Program-made: the position numbers and the translations under genes
Notes under the pieces: model-generated
The model's input: the letters and a program-made list of their open reading frames with translations, nothing else
What the model was told of the DNA's origin: nothing
Databases searched by the model: none
Source: Bradyrhizobium sp. 21
Lineage (GTDB): Bacteria > Pseudomonadota > Alphaproteobacteria > Rhizobiales > Xanthobacteraceae
Length of the DNA stretch: 64,000 nucleotides
Reading direction: 5' to 3'
Assembly: GCF_023073335.1 (NCBI RefSeq)
Contig: NZ_JADPJG010000032.1
Location: forward strand, 496,001 to 560,000
Shown: piece by piece, positions 637 to 22,064 of the stretch
How the letters are laid out: each line of letters begins with the position of its first letter
How positions within the stretch are numbered: position 1 is the first letter of the stretch

Positions 637-2475
637 TCACGGCTTCGACCGCTGCATCGCCGGCTTATCGCACTCCTGCCTTGCGGCGGACAGATTGTGC
701 GCGGTGTTGATGAGCGCGATATGGGTCAGCGCCTGCGGGAAATTGCCGGTCTGGCGGCGCGCAACAGAATCATATTCCTCCGCCAATAGCCCGACGTCGT
801 TCGCAATTCCGACCACGCGGTCGAGCAGGATCTGCGCCTTGTCGAGATCGCCGGCCAGCACATGGGCATCGGCCAGCCACAGGGTGCAGGCGAGGAATGC
901 ACCCTCGATCGGCTGCTTCTCGTCAGATGTTTCGCGCGGATCGTGCCGCAAGACAAAACCGTCGCGCATCATGTGCTTTTCTACCGCCGCGATGGTGCCG
1001 CGGATGCGCGGGTCCTCCGCCGGCAGGAAGCCGACACCCGGCAGCAGCAGCACGCTGGCATCGAGCAGCTTTGAGCCGTAGGACTCGACGAAGGCATTCT
1101 CCTCCGCGTCAAATCCCCTGTTGCAGACGTCGCGATGGATGGCTTCGCGCAAGGCCCGCCAATGCAACAGCGGCGCCTTGAAGCCAAAGGTCTCGGCGCT
1201 CTTGATAGCGCGGTCGAACGCGACCCAGGTCATCACCTTCGAGAAGACGTAGTGTCGCGGCTGGCCGCGCCGTTCCCAGATGCCATGATCGGGCTGATCC
1301 CAGACCTCGGCGAGATGATTGAGCACGTTGCATTCCAGGGCCCAGGTCGTTTCGTCGTCGAGCTTGAGCTTGGCCATCCGCGACTGATGGAAGGCGTCGA
1401 TCAATTCGCCATAGACGTCGAGCTGGAGCTGCGCATGCGCGGCATTGCCGACGCGCACGGGCTGCGCGCCCTCGTAGCCGTCGAGCCAGCCCGCCTCCCA
1501 TTCCAGTAGCCGCCGCTGGCCCCAGATGCCGTACATGATCTGCATGTTCGCGGGCGAGCCGGCCGCGGCGCGCAACAGCCAATTGTGCCACGCCAGGGCT
1601 TCCTCGGTATAGCCGGAGTTCATCAGCGCCAGCAGCGTGAAGGTGGCGTCGCGCAGCCAGCAGAAGCGGTAGTCCCAATTCCTGGCGCCGCCGAGCTTTT
1701 CCGGCAGCGAGGTGGTGGGCGCCGCGACGATGCCGCCGGTGGGGCCGAAGGTCAGCGCCTTCAGCGTGATCAGCGAGCGCATGATGAGATCATGATAATC
1801 GCCGTTATGCGTCGAACGGCCGCTCCATTCCTGCCAGAATTTTTCGGTCTCCTGGAGGGCGATCTCGGGGTCGATCGGCGGCGGTGGATCGACATGCGAG
1901 GGACCGTAGGTCAGCACGAACGGCACGGTCTCGCCGGCCTTCACCTCGAAATCGGAGATCGTGGTCATGTCCTCGCCACGGGTCTCGGCCGGCGTGCGCA
2001 GCACGGTCATGTCCTGACCCGCGATCGCCAGCAGCGAATGATCGATCCGCCGCACCCAGGGAATGTCGACGCCGAAGCCGAAGCGGATCACCAGCTCCAT
2101 CCGCATCTTCACCGAACCGCTGACGCCGCGGACCAGCCGCACGATGTCCGAGGCCTTGCCGCGCGGCGGCATGAAGTCGATCAACGCGACGGTGCCGCTC
2201 TCCGTCTCGAAGCGCGTCTCGAGGATGAGGGTGTCGCCGAGATAGCGGCGCGAAATGGCTGTGACGTCCTCGCTTGGCGCGATCAGCCAGCGGCCGTTCT
2301 TGGGGGTGCCGAGGATCGCGGCAAAGCAGGCGTCGGAATCGAAGGCCGGCCAGCACAGCCAGTCGATCGAGCCGTTGCGCCCGACTAGCGCTGCGGTCTC
2401 GCAGTCGCCGATCAGCGCATAATCCTCGATCTTCTGAGACAATGTCGTTCGAACCCTGGAAATGGCGGCGCTCAA
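637..2475 (-). CDS. GH15 family hydrolase (glucoamylase- or trehalase-type)
   Basis: A 612-aa cytosolic glycoside hydrolase of family 15; no signal peptide. The N-terminal beta domain opens with IEDYALIGDCETAALVG and SIDWLCWP, and the (alpha/alpha)6 barrel carries RNWDYRFCWLRDA, the -1/+1 subsite signature. Candidate acid and base Glu residues sit in the IEGAF segment and in LLAEEYD, just before GNFPQALTHIALI. Family members hydrolyse maltodextrins, dextran or, in mycobacteria, trehalose; sequence alone does not decide between them. Its start codon overlaps the malQ stop by 4 bases (ATGA type), so it is the second gene of a malQ-GH15 operon. If it is a trehalase it opposes the TreS/TreYZ enzymes encoded divergently. 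Confidence 0.93.
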   Translation of the reverse strand: MSAAISRVRTTLSQKIEDYALIGDCETAALVGRNGSIDWLCWPAFDSDACFAAILGTPKNGRWLIAPSEDVTAISRRYLGDTLILETRFETESGTVALIDFMPPRGKASDIVRLVRGVSGSVKMRMELVIRFGFGVDIPWVRRIDHSLLAIAGQDMTVLRTPAETRGEDMTTISDFEVKAGETVPFVLTYGPSHVDPPPPIDPEIALQETEKFWQEWSGRSTHNGDYHDLIMRSLITLKALTFGPTGGIVAAPTTSLPEKLGGARNWDYRFCWLRDATFTLLALMNSGYTEEALAWHNWLLRAAAGSPANMQIMYGIWGQRRLLEWEAGWLDGYEGAQPVRVGNAAHAQLQLDVYGELIDAFHQSRMAKLKLDDETTWALECNVLNHLAEVWDQPDHGIWERRGQPRHYVFSKVMTWVAFDRAIKSAETFGFKAPLLHWRALREAIHRDVCNRGFDAEENAFVESYGSKLLDASVLLLPGVGFLPAEDPRIRGTIAAVEKHMMRDGFVLRHDPRETSDEKQPIEGAFLACTLWLADAHVLAGDLDKAQILLDRVVGIANDVGLLAEEYDSVARRQTGNFPQALTHIALINTAHNLSAARQECDKPAMQRSKP

Positions 2476-4433
2476 CGCCCGCCGGGCAACGAGCGTTCCC
2501 GCGTGGCGGCCTTCAAAGCTGCGAGATCGATCTTCGAAGCGATCTTGTCGAGCGTCACCGGCAGCCGCTGGCGCCAGTTCGGATGCTCGTCGATCGTGCC
2601 TGGAATGTTGGGCTGGTCGATCACGCCGAGCAGATCCTCCAGCGACACCGCGAGCAGCCGTGACGGCGTGCGCGACAGGAAGGCGAGCACCGAATAGAGG
2701 TCGTTGGCGTTGATGCCGTTCTGGCGCAGGATCTCGTCGAGCCTGCCGAGCGCATCCCAGCGCGCCTGGCTGTCCTCGCCGGGATCGAGCCCGAGCGAGA
2801 GTTTCATCTTGAGATCGCTGAAGGAGCGCCAGCCTGCATAGGTCGACAAATCATGGGTGTTCAGCGTCACCAGCGCGTTGGGCCGGTAGTGATCGACGGG
2901 CCGGAAGTGACCGGAATCGTCGCGCTCGAACATCATGACGAGGTAGGACCAGATGCCGAAATCTTGCATGGTCTCGCGAAAACCTTCCGGCACCGTGCCA
3001 AGGTCTTCGCCGATCACGATGCACTTATGGGCCGCGCTCTCGCGCGCCACGGTCGCCAGCAGCGCCTCGAACGGCATCTGCACATAGGCGCCGTTGTCGG
3101 GCTTGAAGCCGCGCGGCACCAGATACAACCGCTTCAGGCCCAGGACGTGATCGAGACGGATAGCCCCGGAATGGCGCATCGAAGCTGCGAGCATATCGGC
3201 GAATGGCACGAAGGATTGCGCCTCCAGGCCGCCGGCATTGAAGCCGGCGAGGCCCCAGTCCTGGCCGATGGTGTTGAGCACGTCGGGCGGCGCGCCGACG
3301 GCGAGATGGCGGGAGATCGCCCCCTGCTCGTTCCAGGCATCGAAGCCGTTGGACTGCACGCCGACGGCGACGTCGAGATAGAGGCCGACGCGCATGCCGA
3401 GCTGACCGGCCAGCTCCTTGGCCGCATGCAACTGGCTATCGGCCGTCCATTGCACGAATTCGATGAACTCGACGTCGTGCTTGTGGGGACCGTTGCGCAG
3501 CTCGGCGCATTTCGCCTCGTCCGGCTGCTGCCATTCCACCGGCCATTCCCACCACGGCGTCGTGAAGCGATGGCGCAACACCTCAAAACAGGCAAAACGG
3601 GACAACAGCGGCGCGCGAGCCGCGCGGAAGGCGTCGAACTCGTTGCGGCGGACACCGCTCGCGCTTTTCACGAAGCTGTCGAAGGCGGCACGCAAGGCCA
3701 ACCACTTCAAAGCCGCCATGTCGGCATAGGGGACGCGGTCGCCTTCACGCAGCCGCGCGGCGGTCGCGGCCGCGTCGGGGACGAGATCGAAGGAAAACTC
3801 CGGGATCGCCTCGACGTCGATATAAAGCGGATTGAGAAACAGCCGGCTGTTCGGCGAATAGGGGCTGCAATCGGCCGGATGGTCGTCGAACAACACGTGC
3901 AGGGGATTGAGCCCGACGCCGTCGGCCCCCAACTGCTTGGCGAGCCGGACGAGATCGGCAAGGTCGGTGAAATCGCCAATGCCCCAATTTCGGTCGGAGC
4001 GGACGCTGTAAAGCTGCACGGCAAGCAGCCAGCCGCGGTCGAAATCGCCGCCGAAGGCCCGTTCGGGCGCCACGATCATTGGCACCTCTTCGCTCACGCC
4101 TCCGGCATCGGTCAGCGTCAGGCGGTGATAGCCGAGCGGCAGGCCGGCGGGCCAGGCAATCACCGGCTCGCGCGTCTCGCCTTGCGCGATCACATTGGCG
4201 TTGCCGGTCATCTTCCATTTGAGCGGCGGCGCACCGATCGTCACCAATTCGGTGCGCGGATGTCCCAAGGCACGGACCACCACGGGCCCGCTGACGAAGC
4301 GGTAAACCCGCTTCTCCGGCAGGGCGTCGAGGATGGATTTGAGGGCCACGGGATCCGTGACCCGCAGCTTTCCGAGGGCATCGACGAATTCGGATTGAAC
4401 GCCCTTGATCCGGGCTTGAGCTAAAAGATCCAT
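2472..4433 (-). CDS. malQ: 4-alpha-glucanotransferase MalQ
   Basis: GH77 amylomaltase, which transfers glucan chains between maltodextrins and releases glucose. The ATG at 4433 gives 653 aa; an in-frame TTG at 4451 would add six residues, and neither has a strong ribosome binding site. The hallmark blocks are all present: DRNWGIGDF (about 147-155), SPYSPNSRLFLNPLYID (190-206), nucleophile D428 in RLDHVLGL, acid/base E476 in GEDLGTVPE, and D528 in NTHDLSTYAGW. An N-terminal beta-sandwich of about 130 aa precedes the barrel, as in long proteobacterial MalQ. First gene of a two-gene unit with GH15, diverging from the glgE-treY operon. Confidence 0.95.
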   Translation of the reverse strand: MDLLAQARIKGVQSEFVDALGKLRVTDPVALKSILDALPEKRVYRFVSGPVVVRALGHPRTELVTIGAPPLKWKMTGNANVIAQGETREPVIAWPAGLPLGYHRLTLTDAGGVSEEVPMIVAPERAFGGDFDRGWLLAVQLYSVRSDRNWGIGDFTDLADLVRLAKQLGADGVGLNPLHVLFDDHPADCSPYSPNSRLFLNPLYIDVEAIPEFSFDLVPDAAATAARLREGDRVPYADMAALKWLALRAAFDSFVKSASGVRRNEFDAFRAARAPLLSRFACFEVLRHRFTTPWWEWPVEWQQPDEAKCAELRNGPHKHDVEFIEFVQWTADSQLHAAKELAGQLGMRVGLYLDVAVGVQSNGFDAWNEQGAISRHLAVGAPPDVLNTIGQDWGLAGFNAGGLEAQSFVPFADMLAASMRHSGAIRLDHVLGLKRLYLVPRGFKPDNGAYVQMPFEALLATVARESAAHKCIVIGEDLGTVPEGFRETMQDFGIWSYLVMMFERDDSGHFRPVDHYRPNALVTLNTHDLSTYAGWRSFSDLKMKLSLGLDPGEDSQARWDALGRLDEILRQNGINANDLYSVLAFLSRTPSRLLAVSLEDLLGVIDQPNIPGTIDEHPNWRQRLPVTLDKIASKIDLAALKAATRERSLPGGR

Positions 4434-4513
4434 TCGGCACGCAGCTTGCAAAGCCAGTCTCTGGCCCGGGGGGCATCGATTTAACGTGGTCGCGGAATAG
4501 GTTAGTCGGGGTT

Positions 4514-4640: not shown

Positions 4641-6587
4641 GTGAACAAGACAATTCAAACTGTCGAGAGTGCCGCAGCCGGCAGCGCTTTCCGCATCGAG
4701 GACGTCTATCCCGTGATCGACGGCGGCCGCTTCCCCGTGAAGCGGATCGCCGGCGAACGGGTCGATGTCTGGGCCGACATTTATCGCGACGGCGACGCCG
4801 TGGTGAGTGCGGCGCTGATCTGGCGACAGGAGCAGGAGCGCGAATGGCGGAGCGAGCCGATGATCCCTCACGGCGATGACCGCTGGTCCGGCGCTTTCAC
4901 GCCCGTCGAGCCCGGGCAATATGTCTATGCGATCGAAGCCTGGACCGACGAATTCGCCACCTGGTCGCACGGGATCGCGCGCAAGCGGCGCACCGGTGCG
5001 GATATCAGTCTCGATGCGATCGAGGGTGCCGGCCTCCTGACCAAGGCGCATGGCGCGCGGCAGGACGCCGCAGCGGTCATCGTCAGGCAATGCGAGGATT
5101 ATCTTCAGACCGGCGACGTCGCCCCGCTGCTGGCAACCGAGCTCGGCGAAGCCATGGCCGAGAGCCAGTCGCGGCCCGACCTCACTCGCTCTGCGCCCTT
5201 CCCGCTCCTCGTCGACCGCGACAAGGCGCGCTTTGGTGCCTGGTATCAGATGATGCCCCGTAGCCAGAGCCAAATCCCCGGCCAGCATGGCACGCTCCGC
5301 GACTGCATCGCGCGCGTGCCCGATATCGCCGCGATGGGCTTTGACGTGCTCTACTTTACGCCGATCCATCCCATTGGCCGCACCCGCCGCAAGGGCCGCA
5401 ACAACGCGCCGGTCGCGACCGAACGCGATCCCGGCTCGCCCTATGCGATCGGTACCTCCGAGGGCGGGCATGACGCACTGCATCCCGACCTCGGCACGAT
5501 CGAGGATTTCCGCGCGCTGGTCGCGACTTGCCTGGAATACGGCCTCGAGCTCGCGCTCGACTTCGCCGTGCAATGCTCGCCGGACCATCCCTGGCTGACG
5601 CAGCATCCGGAATGGTTCAAATGGCGACCGGACCGCTCGGTGCGGACGGCTGACGGGCCCTATTCCGATATCGTCATCCCCGATTTCATGTCCGTCGACC
5701 GGGCCGGACTGTGGAACGGGTTTCGCGACGCCATGCTGTTCTGGATCGACCATGGCGTCACCATCTTCGCCATCGACAATCACGACACCGCGCCGCTGCC
5801 GTTCTGGGAGTGGCTGATCCGCGACATCCGCCGGCGGCATCCCGAGGTGGTCCTGTTCTCCAAGACGTTTGCGCGGCCGAAGCTGATGAAGGGCCTTGCC
5901 AAGCTCGGCTTTGCGCAATCCTTCAGCTATTTCCCCTGGCGCACGGAGAAGTGGGAGCTGGAGCAATATTTGGGCGAACTGACGCGCTATCCGGAACGCG
6001 ACTTCTACCGGCCGAACCTGTTCGTGAGCACGCCCGACCTGCTGCCCTATCATCTCCAGGGCGGCGAGACCTGGGCATTCAAATCGCGCGTTGCGCTGGC
6101 CGCGACGCTGTCGGGCAATTACGGCGTCTACAGCGGCTTCGAGTTGCTGGAGCACGACGCGATCCCCGGCTGCGAGGAATATCTCGACTCCGAGAAATAC
6201 CAGATCAAGCAGCGCGACTGGGACAAGCCCGGCAACATCAAGCCCTACATCACGGAGCTCAATCGCATCCGCAAGGAAAATGCGGCGCTTCGACAGACGG
6301 CGAACCTGTGCTTCCTCGGCATTGAGGACGGCGAGACGATCGCGTTCGCCAAACAGACCGCCGATCCCGCGAACACCGTCGTCGCGGTCATCGCCCTCTC
6401 GCGCCATGCGCGCGAATTCTGGCTGCCGCTCGGCGAGCTCACCATCGAAATCGGCGGCGCGCGCCGCCCCGTCACCGCACTCGAAAATCTCCTCACCGGC
6501 GAACAGTCCCGCATCGAATGGGGCGGGATCAAATTGCGCATCGATCCCGACCGCGATCCGGCGCTGCTGTTCCGCTGCCTGGCGTAA
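4641..6587 (+). CDS. glgE: GlgE-like maltosyltransferase with altered active site
   Basis: A 648-aa GH13_3 homologue of GlgE, which normally extends alpha-1,4-glucan with maltose-1-phosphate. GTG start. The N-terminal domain opens with [17 protein letters not shown], typical of Glg[10 protein letters not shown] (239-247), [12 protein letters not shown] (307-318) and SEKY (517-520) are conserved. The catalytic centre is not: nucleophile D379 remains, but the usual Arg two residues earlier is A377, the acid/base Glu of the AEAF motif is K408 (aag at 5862-5864), and the family's YAENPPKKYQ loop is reduced to TADGPYSDI (336-344). The reading frame is intact and otherwise well conserved, so this looks like a maintained protein of changed function, not a decayed gene. 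First gene of the operon with treS 10 bases downstream, whose maltokinase would make its expected substrate. Confidence 0.85.
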
Positions 6588-6597
6588 GGATCACGCC

Positions 6598-9500
6598 ATG
6601 AACGTATTGTCTTCGGTCGACACCAAGAAAGCCGAGGCTGCCGAGATCGTGGATGAGCTCTGGTACAAGGACGCGATCATCTACCAGCTCCACGTCAAGG
6701 CGTTCGCCGACAGCAATCATGACGGCATTGGCGATTTCGCCGGGCTGACCGAGAAGCTGCCTTATCTCCAGGAGCTCGGCGTCACCGCGCTGTGGCTGTT
6801 GCCGTTCTATCCTTCGCCCGGTCGCGACGACGGCTACGACATTGGCGACTACGGCTCGATCAATCCCGATTTCGGGACGATGAAGGATTTCAAGCGCTTC
6901 ATCCAGGAGGCGCAGAAGCGCGGCTTGCGCGTCATCACCGAACTCGTCGTCAACCACACCTCGGACCAGCACAATTGGTTCAAGCGCGCGCGCCGCAGCC
7001 CGGCGGGGTCGAGCGCCCGCAACTGGTATGTCTGGAGCGACACCGACCAGAAATACCAGGGCACGCGCATCATCTTCACCGACACGGAGAAGTCGAACTG
7101 GACCTGGGATCACGAGGCCGGCGCCTTCTACTGGCACCGCTTCTTCTCGCACCAGCCGGATCTCAATTTCGACAATCCGCGCGTCGTCAGCGCCCTCATC
7201 CAGGTGATGAAGCGCTGGCTCGACGCCGGCGTCGACGGATTCCGCCTCGACGCCATTCCCTATCTCTGCGAGCGCGAGGGCACCTCGAACGAGAACCTCC
7301 CGGAAACGCATGCGATCATCAAGCGCCTGCGCCAGGAGCTGGATTCCTACTCCAAGGGCAAGCTGCTGCTGGCCGAGGCCAATCAATGGCCGGAGGACGT
7401 ACAGGAATATTTCGGCCGCGGCGACGAATGCCACATGGCCTACCACTTCCCGCTGATGCCGCGCATCTACATGGCAATCGCGCAGGAGGACCGTTTCCCG
7501 ATCACCGACATCCTGCGCCAGACGCCGGACATTCCGGCGAGCTGCCAATGGGCTCTGTTCCTGCGCAACCATGACGAGCTGACGCTGGAAATGGTGACGG
7601 ACGTCGAGCGCGACTATCTCTGGACCACCTACGCCAACGATCCACGCGCCCGCATCAATGTCGGCATCCGTCGGCGCCTCGCGCCGCTGATGGACAACGA
7701 CCGGCGCAAGATCGAGCTGATGAACTCGCTTTTGCTGTCGTTCCCCGGCACGCCGATCATCTATTACGGCGACGAGATCGGGATGGGCGACAACATCTAT
7801 CTCGGCGACCGCAACGGCGTGCGCACGCCGATGCAGTGGAGCCCGGACCGCAATGGCGGCTTCTCGCGCTGCGACCCGGCGCGCCTCTACGCGCCGCTGA
7901 TCATGGATCCGGTCTACGGCTACGAATCGGTGAACGTGGAGGCGCAGTCGCGCAGCCTGTCCTCTCTGCTCAGCGCCACCAAGCGGCTGATCTCGGTGCG
8001 CAAGTCGACGCTCGCCTTCGGCCGCGGCACCATGACCTTCATCCGCCCGGCCAACCGCGCCGTGCTGGCCTATGTCCGGCAGTACGGCGACGAGGTGATC
8101 CTCTGCGTCGCCAATTTGTCGCGCGCGGCCCAGGCGACCGAGCTCGATCTGTCGCCCTGGAAGGACCGCATCCCGCAGGAGATGCTCGGCCGCACGCGTT
8201 TTCCGGCGATCGGCGAACTGCCCTACATGGTCACGCTGGGGCCCTATGGCTTCTACTGGTTCCAGCTCACCGAGCGCGACAAGTCCGAGCCGGTCACGCC
8301 GCGCGCGGTGCCGGAATTCGAGACGCTGGTGGTGCCGGTGAACTCGACCTGGGTGTCGCTGGCGCGCGAGCGCGGCGTGTTCGAGCACGAGGTGCTGCCG
8401 GGATTCCTGTCGCGCACGCGCTGGTATCCGGAGCACAATCCCAAGCACATCAAGCCCACGCTGACCTCGGCGGTGCCGTTCTGCGACATCGGCGACAACA
8501 GGCCCTGGATCGCGGTCTTCGAGGCGGCGAAGCACGACGTCACGACGCGTTACGTGCTGCCGATGCAGATCGAGTGGGTGCGCTTCGACCGAGAACGCTT
8601 CAATCCGAAGGCGCTCGCCGCCGTGCGCCAGGGTGCGCGCGAAGGGACGCTGCTCGACGTCGCGACCGAGCAGATCTTCATCGGCCTTTTCCTGCGCAAC
8701 CTGTCGCAGAATTTGGTGGTGGAGGAGAACAATCTGCGGCTGGAGTTCAAGGCCACCAGCCGGTTCGCCGACTACACCATCAAGGAGCCTGAACGCATCC
8801 GCGCGATCGAGCAGACGAACAGCACCGCGCTGGTCGACAACCAATATGTCGCCAAGATCTATCGCCAGCTCGAGGGCGGCATCAACCCCGAGATCGAGAT
8901 TGGCTCCTACCTCACCGAAACCGCCCGCTTCGCCAACACGCCGGCGCTGCTCGGCAGCGTCGAGCTGGTCGAAGGCGATCATCGCAGCGCGCTCGGCGTG
9001 CTGCACGCCTATGTCGAGAATCAGGGCGACGGCTGGGCCGTCACCGCGGGTTATCTCGACCGCTATATCGACGAGCAGCGAGTGCTGCCGCCGGGCGAGA
9101 TACCCCGTGAGACCCAGGAGCAAGCGCCTTATCTGCACTTCATGGCACAGATCGGACGGCGGCTCGCAGAGCTGCACGTGGCTCTCGCCGCCGCAAAGCC
9201 CGATGATCTGGCCCCCGATCCGATCGCCTCCGCACACGTCAAGCGGTGGACATCCGACCTCAAGGCCCGGGCCGAGCGGGTTTTCGAGGGGCTGGACGAT
9301 AGAAGCGAAAGCTTGCGGGAAGCGGACCGGCCGTTGGTCGATCAGCTCGCAGCATTGCGCAGCTCCCTATCCGGCCGGCTGCATGCGCTCTTGCCATCCG
9401 GGATCGGCGGGCTGAACATCCGTCATCATGGCGACTTCCGCCTCGGGCAAACTCTGATCGTGAAGGACGATATCTTCATCATCGACTTCGACGGAGATCC

Positions 9501-9888
9501 GCGTTTGCCGCTGGCCGACAAGCGGCGCAAGCTGCCTGCCGCGCGCGACGTCGCCGGCCTGATCCGCTCGATTGATCTTTCAGTTAACGCGGCGCTCAAC
9601 CGCGCGCTCACTGGCGCCTCCGACGAGCAGGGCCGGCTTACGGCTGCGCTCGGCGAATGGCGCGAGCGCGCCGCCGCCACCTTCCTCACCGCCTACCGGG
9701 AAGCCATGACCGATCGGCGACTGTGGCCGGAGGATCGGCAATCTGCGGCTGGCCTGTTAAGGTTTTTCCTGCTTGATCAAGCGTTCGACGAAGTAGAGTA
9801 CGAGCTGTCCCACCGGCCTGAGGGGCTCCACGCGCCGCTGTCCGGACTGCTTCGCATTCTGTCCAATGAGAGCGAAGTCCATGCCTAA
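6598..9888 (+). CDS. treS: TreS-maltokinase fusion (trehalose synthase / maltose kinase)
   Basis: A 1096-aa two-domain enzyme. Residues about 20-550 are GH13_16 trehalose synthase, interconverting trehalose and maltose: nucleophile D218 in [11 protein letters not shown], acid/base E260 in [10 protein letters not shown], and D326 in [10 protein letters not shown]. Residues about 590-1096 are a Pep2/Mak maltokinase that phosphorylates maltose with ATP: N-terminal cap [12 protein letters not shown], catalytic HGD (944-946) with following LGQ, and metal-binding DFDGDP (D963). Both active sites look complete. The ATG at 6598 is chosen because the frame upstream overlaps glgE; the gene follows glgE by 10 bases and overlaps glgB. 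It would feed maltose-1-phosphate to GlgE. Confidence 0.95.
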
Positions 9889-12019
9889 ACTCCCAGCCGA
9901 GGCCTACGCGATCATCGAGGGCCGCCACTCCGATCCCTTCCACTATCTCGGGCTGCATCCCGAGGGCGGCAAGAGCGTGGTGCGCGCGTTTCTCCCCGAG
10001 GCCTCCAATGTCGAGGCCGTCGGCGAGCACGGCGAGGTGGCGAAGCTCGACCGCGTCCATGAGTCCGGCCTGTTCATCGGCGCCCTCCCGAACGGCTCGA
10101 AGCGCTACCAGCTGCGCGCGAAGTTCGGCGACAACGTCGTCGAATTCGAGGATGCCTATCGCTTCCCGCCGATCCTGACCGATTTCGATCTCTATCTGCT
10201 CGGCGAAGGCACTCACCAGCGCCTCTACGACAAGCTCGGCGCGCATCCGATGCGGCTCGAAGGCATCGACGGCATCGGCTTCGTGGTGCTGGCGCCGAAT
10301 GCGCGGCGCGTGTCGGTGGTCGGCGACTTCAATTTCTGGGACGCGCGGCGGCACTCCATGCGGGTGCGCGGCGCCGGCTATTGGGAATTGTTCATCCCGC
10401 ACGCCAAGGCCGGCGACCACTACAAGTTCGACATCATCGGACCGCATGGCCATCAGCTTCCGCTGAAGTCCGATCCGATGGCGTTCGCGAGCGAGGTGCG
10501 GCCAAAGACGGCGTCCATCGTGTTCGACGAGGCGCACCTGCCGCGGCCGCGGCCGGCACCCGACGGCATCAACGCATTGTCGGCGCCGATGTCGATCTAC
10601 GAGGTTCATCTCGGCTCATGGCGGCGCAAGAACGGCGACGAATGGCTGACCTATCGCGAGCTGGCGGAGCAGCTGCCGGCCTACGCCCGCGACATGGGCT
10701 TCACCCATCTCGAATTCCTTCCCGTCAGCGAGCATCCTTTCGACGGTTCATGGGGCTATCAGCCGACCGGCCTGTATGCGCCGACCAGCCGCTTCGGCAC
10801 GCCGGAGGATTTTGCCGCGCTGGTCGATGCGTGCCACCGCGAGGGCGTCGGCGTGCTGCTCGACTGGGTGCCCGGTCACTTCCCGGACGATCCGCACGGC
10901 CTCGGCAGCTTTGACGGCACCTCGCTGTACGAGCATGCCAACCCGCTGCAGGGCCGCCATCTCGATTGGGGCACGCTGATCTACAATTACGGCCGCACCG
11001 AAGTGACGAATTTTTTGGTGTCTAACGCGCTGTTCTGGCTGGAACGCTACGCGATCGACGGGCTGCGGGTCGATGCAGTGGCGTCGATGCTGTATCTCGA
11101 TTACAGCCGGCCTCCGGGCGCGTGGATCCCGAATCAATATGGCGGCCGCGAAAACATCGAGGCGATCGCGTTTCTGCGCCGCGCCAACACGGAGATCTTC
11201 GCCCGCTTCCCGCAGACGACCACGGCCGCCGAAGAGTCTACCGCCTGGCCGCAAGTCTCGCGCCCGGTCGAATTCGGCGGGCTCGGATTCGGCTACAAGT
11301 GGAACATGGGCTGGATGCATGACACGCTGAACTACATCAGCAAGGATCCGATCCACCGCAAGCATCATCACGGCGACATCCTGTTCGGCCTGCACTACGC
11401 CTTCTCGGAAAACTTCATCCTGCCGCTGTCGCATGACGAGGTCGTGCACGGAAAGCGCTCGATCCTGGGGCGCATGCCCGGCGACGAATGGCAGCGCTTT
11501 GCCAATTTGCGCGCCTATTACAGCTTCATGTTCGGCCATCCCGGCAAGAAGCTGCTGTTCATGGGCGCCGAGATCGCGCAAAGCCGCGAATGGAATCACG
11601 ACCAATCGCTCGACTGGCACCTGCTCGAGCACAAGACCCACTCCGGCATCCAGTCCCTGATCCGCGACCTCAACCGGCTCTATCGCGCCGTGCCCGCCCT
11701 GCACCAGATGGATTGCGACCCGGCCGGCTTCGAATGGCTGATCACCGACGACGCCAACCGCAACGTGTTCGCCTGGCTGCGCAAGGGACTCGACGAGCAC
11801 GCGCGATGTCTCGTGATCGTCAATTTCTCACCCAACGTCTATCGCAACTATCGCGTTCGCGTGCCCTTCGGCGGCAAATGGAAGGAAGTTCTCAACTCGG
11901 ACTCCGCCCATTACGGCGGCAGCAATGTCGGCAACATCGGCGAAGTGCATGCCGTCGATGGCGAGCTCCGCCTCACCATTCCGCCGCTCGCCGCGATCTT
12001 CCTCGTTCCGGAAAGCTGA
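9881..12019 (+). CDS. glgB: 1,4-alpha-glucan branching enzyme GlgB
   Basis: A 712-aa GH13_9 branching enzyme that creates alpha-1,6 branches in glycogen. Two CBM48-like beta domains occupy about residues 1-220 ([13 protein letters not shown] is the second-domain hallmark), then the barrel with [11 protein letters not shown], nucleophile D398 in [10 protein letters not shown], acid/base E451 in AEES, and D519 in [12 protein letters not shown]. The ATG at 9881 overlaps the treS stop by 8 bases and has GAGAG upstream; an in-frame ATG at 9866 is possible but lacks a ribosome binding site. Part of the glgE-treS-glgB-glgX-treZ-treY operon. Confidence 0.96.
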
Positions 12020-12022
12020 CCG

Positions 12023-14101
12023 ATGCGCCTGACTGCTGGATCGCCCGCACGCCTCGGCGCAAGCTGGGACGGACGAGGCACCAATTTCGCGCTGTTCTCC
12101 GCCAACGCGCAGAAGGTCGAGCTGTGCCTGTTCGACACGCAAGGCCGCCGCGAACTCGAACGCGTCGAACTGCCGGAGCGCACCGAGGATGTCTGGCACG
12201 GCTATTTCAACGACGTCTCGCCCGGCCAGCTCTACGGCTACCGCGTGCACGGCCCCTACGAGCCCGAGCAGGGTCATCGCTTCAACGCCAACAAACTGCT
12301 GCTCGACCCCTATGCCAAGCGGCTTTCCGGGCGGCTGGTCTGGAGCGACGCGCATTTCGCCTATCGCACCGGAAGTCCGCGCGAGGATCTGTCCTTCGAC
12401 CGGCGCGACAATGCGCGCGGCATGCCCAAGGGCGTCGTCGTCGACGAGACTTTCAATTGGGGCCGGCGCGAGATCCGCCCCAACATCCCGTGGGAAGACA
12501 CCATCATCTATGAGGCCCACGTCAAGGGCTTGACGCAGAAGCGCGACGACGTGCCGCCGAATCTGCGCGGCACTTACGGCGGGCTGTCGTCGCCGGCGAT
12601 GATCGAGCACTTAAAGAAGCTCGGCGTCACCACGGTGGAGCTGCTGCCGATCCACGCCTTCGTCGACGACCGGGTTCTGGTCGAGAAGAAGCTCGCCAAT
12701 TACTGGGGCTACAACTCCCTGTCGTTTTTCGCGCCGGAGCAGCGCTACGCTCAGGACAACGCGCTCGACTCCTTCCGCACCACGGTCGCACGCCTGCACG
12801 ATGCCGGCATCGAGGTGATGCTCGACGTCGTCTACAACCACACCGCCGAGGGCAATCACCTCGGCCCGACGCTGTGCTACCGCGGTATCGACAACGCCTC
12901 CTATTACTGGCTGAACCGCGAGAACCCGCGCTACTACGACGATTTCACCGGCTGCGGCTCGTCGGTAAACCTCACCCACCCGCGCGTGCTGCAGATGGTG
13001 ATGGATTCGCTGCGCTACTGGGTCGAGGTCTGCCACGTCGACGGCTTCCGTTTCGACCTCGCCACGACGCTGGCTCGCGGGCCGAACGGCTATGATCGCG
13101 GCATCTCGTTCCTCACCGCGATCAGGCAGGATCCGGTGTTGGCGAGCGTCAAGCTCGTCGCCGAACCCTGGGATCTCGGCCTCGGCGGCTATCAGGTCGG
13201 CGCATTCCCCTCGCAATGGTCGGAGTGGAACGACCGTTACCGCAGCGCCATGCGCCGCTACTGGAGCGGTGAAGGCAGCCTGATCGGCGACATCTCCAGC
13301 CGCATGACGGCGTCCTCCGACCTGTTCAACCACGATGGACGGCGACCGCGCGCCAGCATCAATCACATCACCGTCCATGACGGTTTTACGCTGGCCGACC
13401 TCTTCAGCTACAACGAGAAGCACAACGAGGCCAATGGCGAGGACAATCGCGACGGCTCCAACGACAATCACAGCAACAATTGCGGTGTCGAGGGCCCGAC
13501 CGACGATCCCCAAATCCTCAGCTTGCGCCGGCAGCTTCGCAAGAACGTGCTGGCCTGCCTCATGCTGGCGCAGGGCATTCCCCTGATCCTCGCCGGCGAC
13601 GAGGTCGGCAATTCGCAATCCGGCAACAACAACGCCTATTGCCAGGACAACGAGGTCGGCTGGATCGGCTGGGACAATCTCGGCAAGGACGGCGACGACA
13701 TGATCGATTTCGTCGCCGAACTCGCCGACATCCGCCGCCGGTTCTCGCAGCTTCGCAGCCATCGCTGGCTCGACGGTCGCCCCAAAGACGGCATCTCCTA
13801 CGGCGCGCTGTGGCTGACGCCGGCCGGCGACGAAATGACGGAAAACGACTGGAAGTTTCCGGAAGGCCGGTTTCTCTCCTATGTGATGGGGCCGATGGAA
13901 CCGGGCAGCGCCGCGATCTTTATCGTACTGAACGCCGCCCCCGAAGAGATCGCATTCAAATTGCCTAAGATGCCCGAATACAAGAGCTGGCAGCAGATCC
14001 TGAACACGACCGATGCCAAGCTGAACAGTGTTGATTTCCTGCCCGGGGGCGACAGCAAGGCGCCGCCGCGCTCCGTGCTCGCTTTCGCGGGGGCGCTATG
14101 A
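12023..14101 (+). CDS. glgX: glycogen debranching enzyme GlgX
   Basis: A 692-aa isoamylase-type GH13_11 enzyme that hydrolyses alpha-1,6 branches of phosphorylase-limit or native glucan. An N-terminal CBM48 domain (RLGASWDGRGTNFALFS) is followed by the barrel: nucleophile D345 in DGFRFDLATTLAR, E381 in LVAEPWDLG, and HDGFTLADLFSYNEKHNEAN with the third acidic residue. The NGEDNRDGSNDN segment that follows is characteristic of GlgX/TreX. It starts 3 bases after glgB and ends in an ATGA overlap with treZ. It would release linear maltodextrins, the substrate of TreY. Confidence 0.96.
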   Translation: MRLTAGSPARLGASWDGRGTNFALFSANAQKVELCLFDTQGRRELERVELPERTEDVWHGYFNDVSPGQLYGYRVHGPYEPEQGHRFNANKLLLDPYAKRLSGRLVWSDAHFAYRTGSPREDLSFDRRDNARGMPKGVVVDETFNWGRREIRPNIPWEDTIIYEAHVKGLTQKRDDVPPNLRGTYGGLSSPAMIEHLKKLGVTTVELLPIHAFVDDRVLVEKKLANYWGYNSLSFFAPEQRYAQDNALDSFRTTVARLHDAGIEVMLDVVYNHTAEGNHLGPTLCYRGIDNASYYWLNRENPRYYDDFTGCGSSVNLTHPRVLQMVMDSLRYWVEVCHVDGFRFDLATTLARGPNGYDRGISFLTAIRQDPVLASVKLVAEPWDLGLGGYQVGAFPSQWSEWNDRYRSAMRRYWSGEGSLIGDISSRMTASSDLFNHDGRRPRASINHITVHDGFTLADLFSYNEKHNEANGEDNRDGSNDNHSNNCGVEGPTDDPQILSLRRQLRKNVLACLMLAQGIPLILAGDEVGNSQSGNNNAYCQDNEVGWIGWDNLGKDGDDMIDFVAELADIRRRFSQLRSHRWLDGRPKDGISYGALWLTPAGDEMTENDWKFPEGRFLSYVMGPMEPGSAAIFIVLNAAPEEIAFKLPKMPEYKSWQQILNTTDAKLNSVDFLPGGDSKAPPRSVLAFAGAL

Positions 14102-15852
14102 GGCCATCCTTCGGGGCGAGGCCGACGAAAGACGGCGTATCGTTCCGGCTGTGGGCGCCTGCCGCGCGCCGTGTCGATCTCCTGCTCGACAGACGACACG
14201 CGATGCAGCGCCGGCAGGATGGCTGGTATGTCGCCGAGATTGCCGGCCTTGCCGTTGGCAGCAACTACAAATTCAGGATCGACGATGAAATCGACGTGCC
14301 CGATCCGGCGTCTGCATTCCAGCCCGAGGACGTGTTCGGCCCGAGCGAGGTGATCGATCATGACGCCTTCGCCTGGCGCGCGCATGATTGGTCCGGCCGT
14401 CCCTGGGAAGAGACGGTGCTGATCGAGACGCATGTCGGCACCTTCACTGCGGAAGGCACCTATAGTGCCATGATCGACAAGCTCGATCATCTCGTCGCGA
14501 CTGGGATCACTGCGCTGGAATTGATGCCGCTGGCCGATTTCGCCGGCCGCCGCGGCTGGGGTTATGACGGCGTGCTGTGGTACGCGCCCGACAGCGCCTA
14601 TGGCCGTCCGGATGAGCTGAAGACGCTGATCGACGAGGCGCATCTACGCGGGCTGATGGTATTCCTCGACGTTGTCTACAATCATTTCGGCCCGGAGGGG
14701 AATTACCTCGGCTGCTATGCGCCGGCCTTCTTCACCGATGCACACACGCCCTGGGGCAGTGCGATCGATTATTGCGTGCCGCAGGTTCGCGCGTTTGCCG
14801 TCGAGAACGCGCTGTCGTGGCTCAGCGACTACCGCTTCGACGGCCTGAGGCTGGATGCCGCCAACCACATCATGGCAATCCCCGGCGAGCAATCGATGCT
14901 GCAGGACCTCAGCGTCGCCGCAGGCGAGCTTGCCAAGGCGACGGGGCGGCACATCCATCTCGTGCTGGAGAACGGCGACAACCGCGCCAGTCTGCTCGAC
15001 GCCGCGCAGCAGCCGCCGAACGGCAAATATCGCGGACAGTGGAACGACGATTACCACCACGTCTGGCACGTGATGCTGACCGGCGAGCTCGCCGGCTACT
15101 ATGCCGACTACCAGACCCCGCGCATGGACCTCGCGCGCGCGCTCGCCTCGGGCTTCGTCTATCAGGGCGAGATCTCGGAATTCTGGGGCAAGAAGCCGCG
15201 CGGCGAGAGAAGCGGCGAGCTGCCGCCCGCGACCTTCGTCAACTTCCTGCAAAACCACGACCAGATCGGCAATCGTCCACTGGGCGACCGGCTCGAGAGC
15301 CTGGCAACGCCGCAGCAGATGGAAGCCGCGCTCGCGGTCACCCTGCTCGCGCCGATGGTGCCGATGCTGTTTCAGGGCGAGGAATGGGGCTCGACGGTCC
15401 CCTTCCCGTTCTTCTGCGACTTCCAGGGCGGCCTCGCCGATGCCGTGCGCAAGGGCCGCAAGCAGGAATATGCCTGGGCCTACGAAAAATATGGCGACGA
15501 GGTGCCCGACCCGCTCGATCCGGCAACGCTGCAATCGGCCGTCCTCGACTGGATCGGCCATACGCCGGAGCAGGACACGCGTCTCGCGCTGGTGCGGGAG
15601 CTGCTCGCGCTTCGCCACAAGGAGATCGCGCCACGACTGAAAAATGCGCGCTTCGGCGACGCCGCCGTGGCCGATAGCGGCCTGCTCACCGCACATTGGC
15701 GCATGGGAGATGGCGCGACGTTGCGCCTCGTCGCCAATCTGTCGGACAAGGACATCGCGCGTCCCAGCGACGCTACGGGAGCGCTTATCTGGGGCGCTAC
15801 CAACGGCGATGGGCTCTCGCCGTGGTCCGTGGTCTGGCGCCTCGGAGATTGA
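14098..15852 (+). CDS. treZ: malto-oligosyltrehalose trehalohydrolase TreZ
   Basis: A 584-aa GH13_10 enzyme that cleaves the alpha-1,4 bond next to the terminal trehalose of maltooligosyltrehalose, releasing trehalose. N-terminal E-set domain (GVSFRLWAPAARRVDLLL), barrel motif VYNHFGPEGNYL, nucleophile D253 in FDGLRLDAANHI, acid/base E291 in LVLENGDNRAS, and LQNHDQIGNR with the third acidic residue. The start codon shares four bases with the glgX stop, implying translational coupling, and treY begins one base after its stop. Confidence 0.96.
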   Translation: MRPSFGARPTKDGVSFRLWAPAARRVDLLLDRRHAMQRRQDGWYVAEIAGLAVGSNYKFRIDDEIDVPDPASAFQPEDVFGPSEVIDHDAFAWRAHDWSGRPWEETVLIETHVGTFTAEGTYSAMIDKLDHLVATGITALELMPLADFAGRRGWGYDGVLWYAPDSAYGRPDELKTLIDEAHLRGLMVFLDVVYNHFGPEGNYLGCYAPAFFTDAHTPWGSAIDYCVPQVRAFAVENALSWLSDYRFDGLRLDAANHIMAIPGEQSMLQDLSVAAGELAKATGRHIHLVLENGDNRASLLDAAQQPPNGKYRGQWNDDYHHVWHVMLTGELAGYYADYQTPRMDLARALASGFVYQGEISEFWGKKPRGERSGELPPATFVNFLQNHDQIGNRPLGDRLESLATPQQMEAALAVTLLAPMVPMLFQGEEWGSTVPFPFFCDFQGGLADAVRKGRKQEYAWAYEKYGDEVPDPLDPATLQSAVLDWIGHTPEQDTRLALVRELLALRHKEIAPRLKNARFGDAAVADSGLLTAHWRMGDGATLRLVANLSDKDIARPSDATGALIWGATNGDGLSPWSVVWRLGD

Positions 15853-15853
15853 C

Positions 15854-18640
<2,787 letters not shown>

Positions 18641-19303: not shown

Positions 19304-19392
19304 GTAGGGTGGGTTAGCGAAGCGTAACCCACCATGCTTCCACGAATGCTGAACGAAGTTGGTGGGTTACGCCTTCGGCTAACCCACCCTAC
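19304..19392. repeat. intergenic inverted repeat between DUF3309 and ligD
   Basis: Arms GTAGGGTGGGTTAGC and GCGTAACCCACC (19304-19333) recur in inverted order at 19360-19392, giving a long stem-loop. This sequence family is frequent in Bradyrhizobium intergenic regions. It fills the space between two converging genes and could act as a bidirectional terminator. Its outer arm contains the TAG stop codon of ligD. Confidence 0.8.
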
Positions 19393-22064
19393 TTCTTTTT
19401 CCCCGCAAGCTTCTTGATAGCCGCCTTGATCGGCGCGGCGGCATCGTCATAACCCTCCCAGGCCTTCGAGCGCACCAGCAGGCCCGGCACCGTTCGTACG
19501 GTATAGCGCTTCGGATCGAGATCGCTCTTCACCTGCGCCCAGGTGACGGGCATCGACACGGTCGCGCCATCGCGCGCGCGCGGGGAGAGCGGCGCTACCG
19601 CCGTCGACATCCGGTCGTTGCGCAGATAATCCAGGAAGATCTTCCCGTTGCGCAGCTTCTTGGACATGTTGAGCAGATAGCGCTCGGGATCGTCGTCCGC
19701 CATCCATTGGCAGACGCCCTGGGCGAAGGCCTTGGCCTCCTTCCAGCTCACCTTGTCCCGCGCGCCATGGAGCAGCGGCACCACCACATGCAGGCCCTTG
19801 CCACCCGTGGTCTTGCAGAAGCTGTCCATGCCGAGATCGGTGAGCCGCTGCCGCATCTCCTTCGCAGCCTCGACGACTTCGGTGAATTCGACGTCCGGCG
19901 CCGGATCGAGATCGAACACCAGCCGGCCCGGCGTGTCATAAGCGTTGGGCGCGCAATTCCAGGGATGCAGCTCGAGGCCGCCAATCTGCGCGACTGCGGC
20001 AAGGCCCTCGACGCGATCGATCTGCAGATACGGCTTGCGATCGCCCGAAACCTTCGCGAGCTCGAGCAGGTTCGAGCTGCCGGGCATGGCATGGCGCTGA
20101 AAGAATGTCTCACCACCGATGCCGTCAGGCGCCCGCACGATCGAGCATGGGCGGCCTTTGAGATGTTCGATCATCCAGGAGCCGACGGCCTCGAAATAGC
20201 GGGCGAGATCGAGTTTTGTCACGCCCTCGCCGTCACCGCCGTCCGGCCACAGCTCCTTGTCCGGCTTGGAGATCACGACGCCCATCACCTCGGCGCTGGC
20301 GTCTTTTCCCTTGCCGGGCTTTGGCGGCACGCGCCGTCCCGTCGAAGGCTTGGCGAGCTCGGTATCGGCGGGCGTTTCCGCCTCGACCTCCTCCGCCGGC
20401 TTGTCCTGCCGCAGGCCCTTGAAGGCGGCCTGGCGGATATTGCCGTCGGCGGTGAAGCCGGCGAATTCGATCTCGGCGACGAGTTCCGGCTTCAGCCAGT
20501 GCACGTCCCGTGCTTTCTTCGGCGCGTTCTTGCCGCCGAAGGGGCTTTGCTTGGCCTCCATGGCTTTCAGGGAGGGCATGATGCGCTTCACCTTGTCGGC
20601 GCCAAAGCCGGTCCCGACCATGCCGACAAAGGCAAGATGATCACCGCGATGCACGCCCGCCATCAGCGAGCGGAATTTTCCATTGGTGGTCTTCCAGCCG
20701 CCGATCACGACCTCATGGCCGGCCCGGCATTTCGCCTTGGTCCAGCTTTCTGTGCGTCCCGAACGATAGGGTGCGTCGAGCTTCTTCGACACGATGCCTT
20801 CCAGCTCGAGCTTGCAAGCCGATTGCAGTACGGCGTCACCGCCGCTCACGAAATGCTCGACATAGCGGATCTGGCTCGATTTCTTCTTTCGCGCCTCCAG
20901 CAATGCCTTGAGGCGGTCCTTGCGTTCGCCGAGCGGCAGACGACGATAATCGAGGCCTTCCGCAAACAAGAGATCGAAGGCGAAGAAGATGAGCTCTTCG
21001 GTCTTGCCGTCCGATAGCGCAGCCTGGAGCGAGGAAAAGTTCGGTGCCCCGTTGTGGTCGAGCGCGACGATCTCGCCGTCGATCATGACGTCCGGCAGCG
21101 AGCTCGCCTCGTTGGCGATCGCCGAAAACTTCTCTGTCCAGTCGAGACCCTTGCGCGTCTTCAACGTCGCCTTGCCGTCCTCGACGCGGAGTTGCACGCG
21201 ATAGCCGTCGAACTTGATCTCGTGGCACCAGCCGTCGACCGCCGGCGGACGCTCGACCGAAGCGCAGAGCTGCGGCGCCACGAAATCCGGCATCTCCGAG
21301 ACTTTGCTGGCGTTGGTCGCTGTCGTGGCTTTCTTCTTCGTTGCCTTGCCGCTCTTCAGCGCCGCGCGTGGCGCCGGCCTGACGGTGCGCCCGTTTGGCT
21401 CCTCGACGCGATTGGACTGCCAGACCGCATCTGCCTTGCCCTTGGCGCCCTTCGCCAGCATGAACGGTTTTGGCGCACGGCCTTTACCTCCGGCGATTTG
21501 CGCCATGGCGCGGCCGGACGCCACCGACTTGTCCTCGGCCAGGATATCCTGGCCTTCGCTGGCATACTCGTCGCGGTGCTTGATCAGCAGCCAGTTGGTG
21601 CGTTTGCCGCCGCTGCGGTCGTTGCGCATGCGCACCAGCACCCAGCTGCCGTGCAGCTTGTCGCCGTGAAGCGTAAACTTGAGGTCGCCCTTCTTGAAGC
21701 CGCGTTCGGGGTCCTCGGATTCCCAGGTGCCCCGGTCCCACAGCATGACCGTGCCGCCGCCGTACTGGCCCTCCGGAATCGTGCCTTCGAAATCGCCGTA
21801 ATCGAGCGGATGGTCTTCGACCTCGACGGCCAGCCGCTTGTCGTGCGGATCGAGCGAGGGCCCTTTCGTCACCGCCCAGGACTTGAAGACGCCGTCGAAC
21901 TCGAGCCGTAGATCGTAGTGCAGCCGCGTCGCATCGTGCTTCTGGATCACGAAGCGCCGCTGCTTCGAGGGCACCACTGCCGTCTTGCCCGACGGCTCCG
22001 GCGTCTTCTCGAAATCACGTTTCTGTCGGTAGGTGGAGAGTTTTCGCAGCACAACCGGTCCCAC
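19389..22064 (-). CDS. ligD: multifunctional DNA ligase D (NHEJ)
   Basis: An 891-aa LigD with three domains: 3'-phosphoesterase (about 30-190; [18 protein letters not shown], with His/Asp residues of that domain), ATP-dependent ligase (about 255-570; lysine nucleophile K284 in EIKFDGYRV), and primase-polymerase (about 605-880; metal motif DLDP). Partner of Ku in bacterial end joining, and able to process, fill and seal breaks. Translation begins at GTG 22064. The last residues (KKLAGKKK) are followed by a TAG lying inside an intergenic repeat. Divergent from ku, with 108 bases between. Confidence 0.96.

Follow-up and report, generated by a model that had tools for sequence, protein, structure and literature searches.

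A GlgE descendant with an altered active site, kept beside a TreS-fused maltokinase that lacks key residues, in Bradyrhizobium

GlgE, the alpha-1,4-glucan:maltose-1-phosphate (M1P) maltosyltransferase, forms the subfamily GH13_3, and among GH13 proteins the plant isoamylase ISA2 is a non-catalytic partner. Reference structures exist for Streptomyces coelicolor (Sco) GlgE1 (3zss/4u2y) and for Mtb GlgE (4u33). We mapped residue sites onto Sco GlgE1 and took their roles from PMC4526890, where Asn352, Lys355, Tyr357, and Asn395 are the phosphate ligands, Arg392 touches O2', Asp394 is the nucleophile, Glu423 is the general acid, and Asp480 touches O3'. The Sco GlgE variants E423A and D394A, in which one catalytic side chain each was removed, bound malto-oligosaccharides in crystals; in E423A crystals soaked with malto-octaose the chain ran from −2 to +6 and contacted Trp448, Arg449, and His397 (PMC5076824). 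In the maltokinase (Mak) of M. vanbaalenii, whose residue numbers are used here, Asp305 is the putative base, Asp322 binds Mg, His307 lies in the maltose pocket, and Glu326 pairs with Arg342 (PMC4306142). Single mutation of Lys413, Tyr416, or Tyr420 practically abolished the activity of this enzyme, and M. tuberculosis Mak was damaged by mutating the equivalents of Ser136 or Asp322 (PMC4306142). Pep2 docks on TreS (PMC6509496), and inactivation of GlgE in M. tuberculosis causes M1P to accumulate to toxic levels (PMC4526890). In the open-access literature we found no published natural inactive GlgE and no dead maltokinase fused to TreS.

The window, the whole 64,000-nucleotide stretch of Bradyrhizobium DNA analysed here, holds a GlgE-derived gene at 4641–6587 (+), recognised by its ORF, alignment, and Pfam content. 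ORF reading gave a protein of 648 aa with a GTG start and zero internal stops, in line with an earlier sequence-only reading of this DNA that had called the frame intact. Comparison with Sco GlgE1 aligned residues 17–643 (E about 1e-149), and the Pfam domain GlgE_dom_N_S scored 185 bits, so that near full-length homology and the N/S domain both place the protein with GlgE. Its nearest homologues, among the best 80 of 279 encoding stretches from named genomes, were from Bradyrhizobium, at identities of up to 92%. No second GlgE was found in the window's own 7.0 Mb genome (G000), where the sole other match was partial and scored 24 bits. An AF2 model built from an alignment of 24 close rows was too poor for reading geometry (pLDDT 50, pTM 0.41).

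The gene lies beside treS-mak and glgB, as GlgE genes do, in a cluster ordered treH (−), malQ (−), the glgE-derived gene, treS-mak, glgB, glgX, treZ, and treY. Domain content and locus comparison identified its divergent neighbour in this conserved cluster as the 4-alpha-glucanotransferase MalQ (2472–4451, −). On the forward strand follow the TreS-Mak fusion (6598–9888), whose TreS part (about 6598–8310) has intact catalytic motifs and is followed by a Mak part with lost residues, the branching enzyme GlgB (9866–12019), the debranching enzyme GlgX (12023–14101), and TreZ with TreY (14098–18640; TreZ 14098–15852, TreY ORF 15644–18640, with a putative start). The catalytic motifs are present in GlgB and GlgX. 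An earlier claim that the five other GH13 enzymes keep complete triads held for TreS, GlgB, and GlgX, in which all three motif strings were found, while two of three matched in TreZ and TreY. A short ORF (51–635, +) upstream of treH is conserved in many of the compared cluster loci, and the cluster is followed by a DNA ligase D gene (19389–22064, −) with phosphoesterase, ligase, and primase-polymerase domains.

Alignment with Sco GlgE1 revealed Lys408 (codon 5862–5864, +) in place of the acid/base Glu423 and Ala377 (codon 5769) in place of Arg392. The latter opens the stretch A377-I-D379-N-H381-D382-T-A384 (5769–5792, +), in which Asp379 (codon 5775) occupies the nucleophile position and Asn380 preserves Asn395; the next residues have changed from PHTK to HDTA, with Pro396 replaced by His381, His397 by Asp382, and Lys399 by Ala384. 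Of the phosphate loop there remains D338-G339-P340-Y341 (5652–5663, +), where Asn352 has become Gly339, Pro354 to Lys356 are deleted, and Tyr357 is kept as Tyr341; two phosphate ligands (Asn352 and Lys355) are thus lost and two (Tyr357 and Asn395) retained. Asp480 is preserved as Asp466 (6036–6038, +), and Lys519-Tyr520 of the SEKY motif (6195–6200, +) correspond to Sco Lys534-Tyr535 in the −2 subsite. All residues of the −2/−1 maltose subsites (Lys264, Asn268, Ser279, Gln324, Asp359, Lys534, and Tyr535) are retained in the window protein. The alignment therefore bears out the sequence-only reading on the Lys at the acid/base position, on the Ala before the nucleophile, and on the conservation of SEKY and the N-terminal domain. 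Its claim of a lost phosphate loop stands for the shortening and the absence of Asn352 and Pro-Lys-Lys and fails for Tyr341 and Asn380, and its list of altered residues, correct as far as it went, missed the wider conversion of NPHTKP to NHDTAP.

A search of 265 Bradyrhizobium genomes placed 132 in a class with a GlgE like that of the window (class A; two copies broken), 35 in a differently altered class B, and 40 in a canonical class C; 58 were GlgE-less, 43 without a match and 15 with weak partial hits. Class A was assigned at an identity of at least 75%, the two broken copies being assigned by their pieces, and residues were read in 95 loci plus genome G516. The residue sample comprised the 95 loci, the window's own included, and 84 distinct proteins (85 distinct rows in some counts). 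An exact DNA pattern for the class A signature matched 9 of the 397 genomes in a sample of the order, all nine among the 15 Bradyrhizobium genomes and none among the other 382. The cluster order is common to class A loci, to the class B loci L130 and L131, and to most canonical loci, as far as the loci extend; exceptions include L132–L134, where GlgE is located elsewhere, and L142–L145. Given this shared order, the class A GlgE was altered in place. TreS catalytic motifs were unchanged wherever the loci covered TreS.

The substitutions seen in the window, which the earlier reading had proposed to check against Streptomyces GlgE and Bradyrhizobium orthologues, proved to be fixed in this 95-locus type. 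In Sco numbers, Lys423, His396, Asp397, and Ala399 were present in 95/95 loci and Ala392 in 94/95; Asn352 was lost in 95/95, Pro354-Lys355-Lys356 was deleted in 93/95, and His397 of the +1 subsite was lost in 85/85 distinct rows. The nucleophile Asp394 was kept in 94/95 loci and Asp480 in 95/95. Each −2/−1 subsite residue was found in 77 to 85 of the 85 distinct rows. Across the sugar subsites and platform as a whole, Lys264, Ala282, Tyr357, Asp359, Asn395, Trp448, Asp480, Glu527, Lys534, and Tyr535 were kept in all of them, and retention was partial for Gln324 (84), Ser279 (82), Arg449 (81), and Asn268 (77). Because the changes are fixed across 95 class A loci, the altered residues are neither sequencing error nor chance. 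The Pro-Lys-Lys segment was present in 53 of 54 rows then classed as canonical, the exception (L130) being later moved to class B, and for this reason the short phosphate loop is a derived state. That it might be common to canonical relatives was ruled out by the full alignment, tblastn columns concealing insertions.

The class A protein thus resembles GlgE in its overall homology, nucleophile Asp, Asp480, −2/−1 sugar subsites, and acceptor residues Trp448/Arg449, and it differs in Glu423 to Lys, Arg392 to Ala, the lost Asn352, the deleted Lys355, and NHDTAP for NPHTKP, including His397. It shares a missing catalytic side chain with the Sco E423A and D394A variants. Those are single engineered changes, whereas the natural class A consensus differs at 20 of 137 family-invariant sites (positions fixed in 71 canonical rows and Sco), many of them near the active site. 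Together these losses strongly support, at the level of predicted function, a loss of GlgE chemistry. The alternative posed by the sequence-only reading, a pseudoenzyme or a new reaction, is still the right pair.

To find newly invariant residues, we required at least 97% presence in class A and less than 15% in canonical rows, D/E swaps excluded. Four chemically active residues emerged, Tyr300, His381, Asp382, and Lys408, each in 95/95 loci and rare or absent in canonical GlgE. No replacement Glu for the acid/base was found among the newly conserved class A residues, so the nearby substitute that the earlier reading had allowed for is absent; the sole new conserved acid is Asp382, adjoining the new His381. 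All four could serve new catalysis or binding equally well. One could propose a rebuilt active site that carries out a different reaction, with maltose, trehalose, or the ends of glucans as substrate and with His381-Asp382 and Lys408 replacing the acid/base system, and retention of Asp379 (94/95) and Asp466 (95/95) would agree with this. On the GlgE tree, where class A sites average 4.1 changes, positions 392, 394, 396, 397, 399, and 423, which include the retained nucleophile, showed 2 changes where the rate over all sites predicts 25, as opposed to 20 where it predicts 12 at three phosphate-loop sites. The kept sugar sites showed 6 changes against 45 expected. Such figures lose weight beside the 117 invariant sites of unchanged consensus, which averaged 0.73 changes per site: the 11 kept pocket sites had 6 changes, the five new residues were not special relative to family-invariant sites (P = 0.29), and the pocket is not clearly more conserved than those sites. 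Moreover, we know of no precedent for GH13 chemistry lacking both the acid/base Glu and the Arg. The class A GlgE at L045:10001–11944 (B. diazoefficiens SZCCT0138) lacks the nucleophile as well (D to A; FTIANHDTAP), yet retains the His, Asp, and Lys. We consider a rebuilt site unlikely, and give slightly less credence again to its more specific form, in which a GH13 enzyme with the GlgE nucleophile and sugar pocket, and His381-Asp382/Lys408 for Glu/Arg, would catalyse an M1P-free reaction that acts on maltose or glucan ends and links TreS maltose to glucan turnover.

The neighbouring kinase bears on whether M1P is available at all. The maltokinase (Mak/Pep2) domain of the fusion, with a border chosen by hand at 8311–9888 (+), is predicted to be inactive. 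Its P-loop EQTNST (8809–8826, +) is retained, with Thr at the Ser136 position, a substitution shared by 2 of 43 canonical rows. The HGDFRLGQ segment (9427–9450, +) keeps the catalytic HGD and has Arg in place of the maltose-pocket His307, and DFDGDP (9484–9501, +) keeps the Mg-binding Asp322, with Glu324 and Glu326 of the DFE loop both changed to Asp. In the maltose site (9775–9804, +), Lys413 has become Gln and Tyr416 Asp, while Tyr420 is retained. The sequence-only reading had supposed that M1P made by this neighbour goes elsewhere; with His307, Glu324, Glu326, Lys413, and Tyr416 lost, that supposition falls. Since the maltokinase half beside the altered GlgE has lost key residues, M1P is probably not made.

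Twelve kinase sites were scored across the genus (Ser136, Asn137, Lys149, His303, Asp305, His307, Asp322, Glu324, Glu326, Lys413, Tyr416, and Tyr420; Thr accepted at 136). All twelve were intact in 42 of 43 class C rows, the exception being L148 (Y416H); these 43 rows are not all independent, with two genomes represented twice, two copies from G345, 5 standalone kinases, and 16 rows from outside the genus. None of the 79 class A, 13 class B, or 34 GlgE-less rows had all twelve. A further 22 rows from other class B genomes were all altered (one clipped by a contig end), and 8 further canonical kinases were all intact by motif. In total, substrate, ATP, or metal residues were lost in 148/148 kinase rows beside an altered or missing GlgE and intact in 50/51 canonical rows; the L307 kinase was readable at its P-loop alone (intact), and the L299 and L306 loci stop short of the kinase. 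The residues were lost by differing routes. Class A kinases retain the P-loop, with H307R and E324D in 79/79, Glu326 changed in 79, Lys413 changed in 75, and Tyr416 present in none. Class B kinases lost Ser136 in the 13/13 rows first read, and a later row, L278, retains Ser136 but is without Asp305, His307, and Asp322. GlgE-less rows lost Ser136 in 34/34 and Asn137 in 30/34. The fusion itself was stop-free, at an identity of at least 72%, in all 35 GlgE-less genomes tested (of 58), in 34 of which the kinase sites were read; in GlgE-less G430, TreS-Mak is divided over two contigs, the second piece at 65% identity. The kinase, predicted to be disabled, thus remains fused to TreS even in genomes that lack GlgE. 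A structural role for this domain is plausible, because Pep2 docks on TreS. The class A neighbour is comparable to the TreS:Pep2 complex and to TreS-Mak fusions, from which it differs in that the kinase part, without its substrate-site residues, would be a structural domain at most.

These data make it very improbable that the class A protein is still an M1P maltosyltransferase working through altered residues. The retained nucleophile, Asp480, Tyr357, Asn395, and sugar subsites would be expected of such an enzyme, but the acid/base, Arg392, Asn352, and Lys355 are absent, and the adjoining kinase lacks Lys413 and Tyr416, mutation of either of which practically abolished M. vanbaalenii Mak activity (PMC4306142). 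A second canonical glgE, which the earlier reading had suggested looking for, is absent: none of the 130 class A genomes searched has a second GlgE-like gene, the next match scoring 26 bits at most, and the window's own genome likewise holds none.

In many Bradyrhizobium, then, loss of the active site appears to have affected GlgE and the M1P-making kinase jointly, with both proteins kept whole. Nine genomes hold a canonical GlgE at another locus. In 9/9 of them the fused TreS-Mak kinase is altered, and the standalone kinase beside the second-locus GlgE is intact in the 8/8 genomes read (all but G491). Canonical GlgE accompanies an intact kinase even within one genome. The cassette in these nine genomes consists of a canonical GlgE (in G122 split over two frames, the one such case among the 40 canonical genomes) and an intact standalone maltokinase about 40% identical, and it looks like a re-acquisition of the pathway. 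It was seen at L207 and L208 (two copies in G345), L132 (G105), L133 (G235), L134 (G122), L182, L183, L206, L209, and L210; in L132–L134 it includes a GlgX relative encoded on the opposite strand.

How many times the loss occurred independently is uncertain, because the GlgE and TreS trees disagree on the placement of class A. In the GlgE tree, class A (own clade support 0.70) was joined with the main class B group (support 1.0). In the TreS tree, which included 27 of 79 class A rows, class A formed one group (support 95) beside canonical L109/L112 (support 95), ten class B rows grouped beside canonical L126/L128/L129 (support 85), and L130, L185, and L211 fell elsewhere. We place more trust in the slower TreS domain than in the GlgE tree. 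The best TreS tree had 11 changes of GlgE state, 4 of them forced by strongly supported branches. Kinase state followed GlgE in 4/4 strongly supported independent pairs, which are too few for significance (median p 0.125).

We then asked how the altered gene has been maintained. Median dN/dS of glgE was 0.161 in class A (84 sequences, median dS 0.47), 0.191 in class B (35), and 0.192 in class C (67), and over shared pairs (74 class A rows and 22 in-genus canonical) omega was 0.157 for class A versus 0.127 for class C. The glgE/glgB dN ratio was 2.49 in class A versus 1.29 in in-genus canonical rows, and the Mak/glgB ratio was 2.97 versus 1.91 in canonical rows. Class A glgE is therefore under purifying selection that is relaxed relative to glgB, and loss of catalytic residues with persisting purifying selection is the pattern of a pseudoenzyme. 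Relaxation could also point to a slowly decaying remnant of a useless M1P branch, kept intact through the recency of its loss or through translational coupling of treS-mak. A frame break (L212; G516), an internal deletion (L184; G410), the lost nucleophile of L045, and the 58/265 genomes without glgE would all be consistent with decay. Yet a dN/dS of 0.16, far below 1 at that divergence over 84 sequences, argues for constraint, and 130/132 class A genomes have an intact-length, stop-free match; coupling is not needed either, since treS-mak survives without glgE in 35/35 genomes tested. Decay we consider improbable, somewhat more so than a rebuilt site.

The explanation that we favour, and hold to be probable, is that the class A protein is a GlgE descendant that no longer uses M1P, in a lineage where the M1P branch is off at the kinase and GlgE steps, and that it probably serves as a non-catalytic glucan binder. 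As judged from sequence, the acid/base, the Arg, half of the phosphate ligands, and the kinase residues have been lost, and the sugar subsites and purifying selection have been kept. Both steps of the M1P branch, first maltokinase and then GlgE, would have been shut down in the class A lineage and, through different residue changes, in other Bradyrhizobium, with TreS, GlgB, GlgX, TreZ, and TreY persisting afterwards. The class A protein would then bind glucan ends without turnover; its lack of activity, its glucan binding, and a partner role are what we infer. The E423A crystals offer the closest experimental hint, by analogy, for such binding. Against a glucan binder, the +1-subsite His397 is lost, and chain binding could be weaker. 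Against the explanation as a whole stand the relaxed constraint, the two broken copies of 132, and the 58 of 265 genomes that live without GlgE. Like ISA2, the class A protein would be a GH13 enzyme minus catalytic residues that is kept beside active enzymes; unlike ISA2, it belongs to another subfamily and is known here from its sequence. The GlgA-type domain PF08323 turned up in 77 of the 80 genomes sampled (60/60 class A, class B, and GlgE-less, 20 each, and 17/20 canonical), which fits retirement of the M1P route but is no proof of glycogen synthesis.

One publication credits B. japonicum with 'a complete glgE operon' and suggests that the desiccation tolerance of this species may be an alpha-glucan phenotype (PMC8084333). 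The named B. japonicum loci L033, L047, L089, and L108 carry altered GlgE with an altered kinase, and their residues argue against a working glgE operon in these four. The presence of GlgE/TreS-Mak genes is thus misleading about M1P pathway function. In B. diazoefficiens, a treS mutant reportedly showed increased trehalose and decreased maltose, and mutants without treZY and treS nodulated like the wild type (PMC8092242). The sugar levels would fit TreS making unphosphorylated maltose. Because GlgE inactivation raises M1P to toxic levels in M. tuberculosis, GlgE loss alone should be harmful; the linked kinase loss fits this logic and renders it testable. With GlgE in canonical form, in two differently altered forms, or missing, mostly at a single locus, Bradyrhizobium provides a natural series that would be useful for following the route from enzyme to pseudoenzyme and the reason why a disabled kinase stays on TreS.

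Class B altered its GlgE differently. Among 35 distinct rows, Glu423 and Asp394 were each kept in 32, and the phosphate loop was altered, mostly to AEHPPQRWDD, with Asn352 to His in 27, Lys355 to Gln in 29, and Tyr357 to Trp in 29. At the catalytic positions, Glu423 was replaced by Gly in three rows (L131, L162, and L202) and Asp394 by Lys in two (L130 and L163) and by Thr in one (L162). M1P is not required for disproportionation by GlgE (PMC11046441), and class B might reasonably be supposed to disproportionate in this M1P-free way. The GlgE of L211 is widely altered. Elsewhere, GlgE matches 46–48% identical were found within open frames of about 1100–1620 aa (G057:C24, G094:C1, G001:C154, G073:C1, G082:C1, G146:C13, and G226:C421), and these family members may carry GlgE as part of a fusion with another enzyme.
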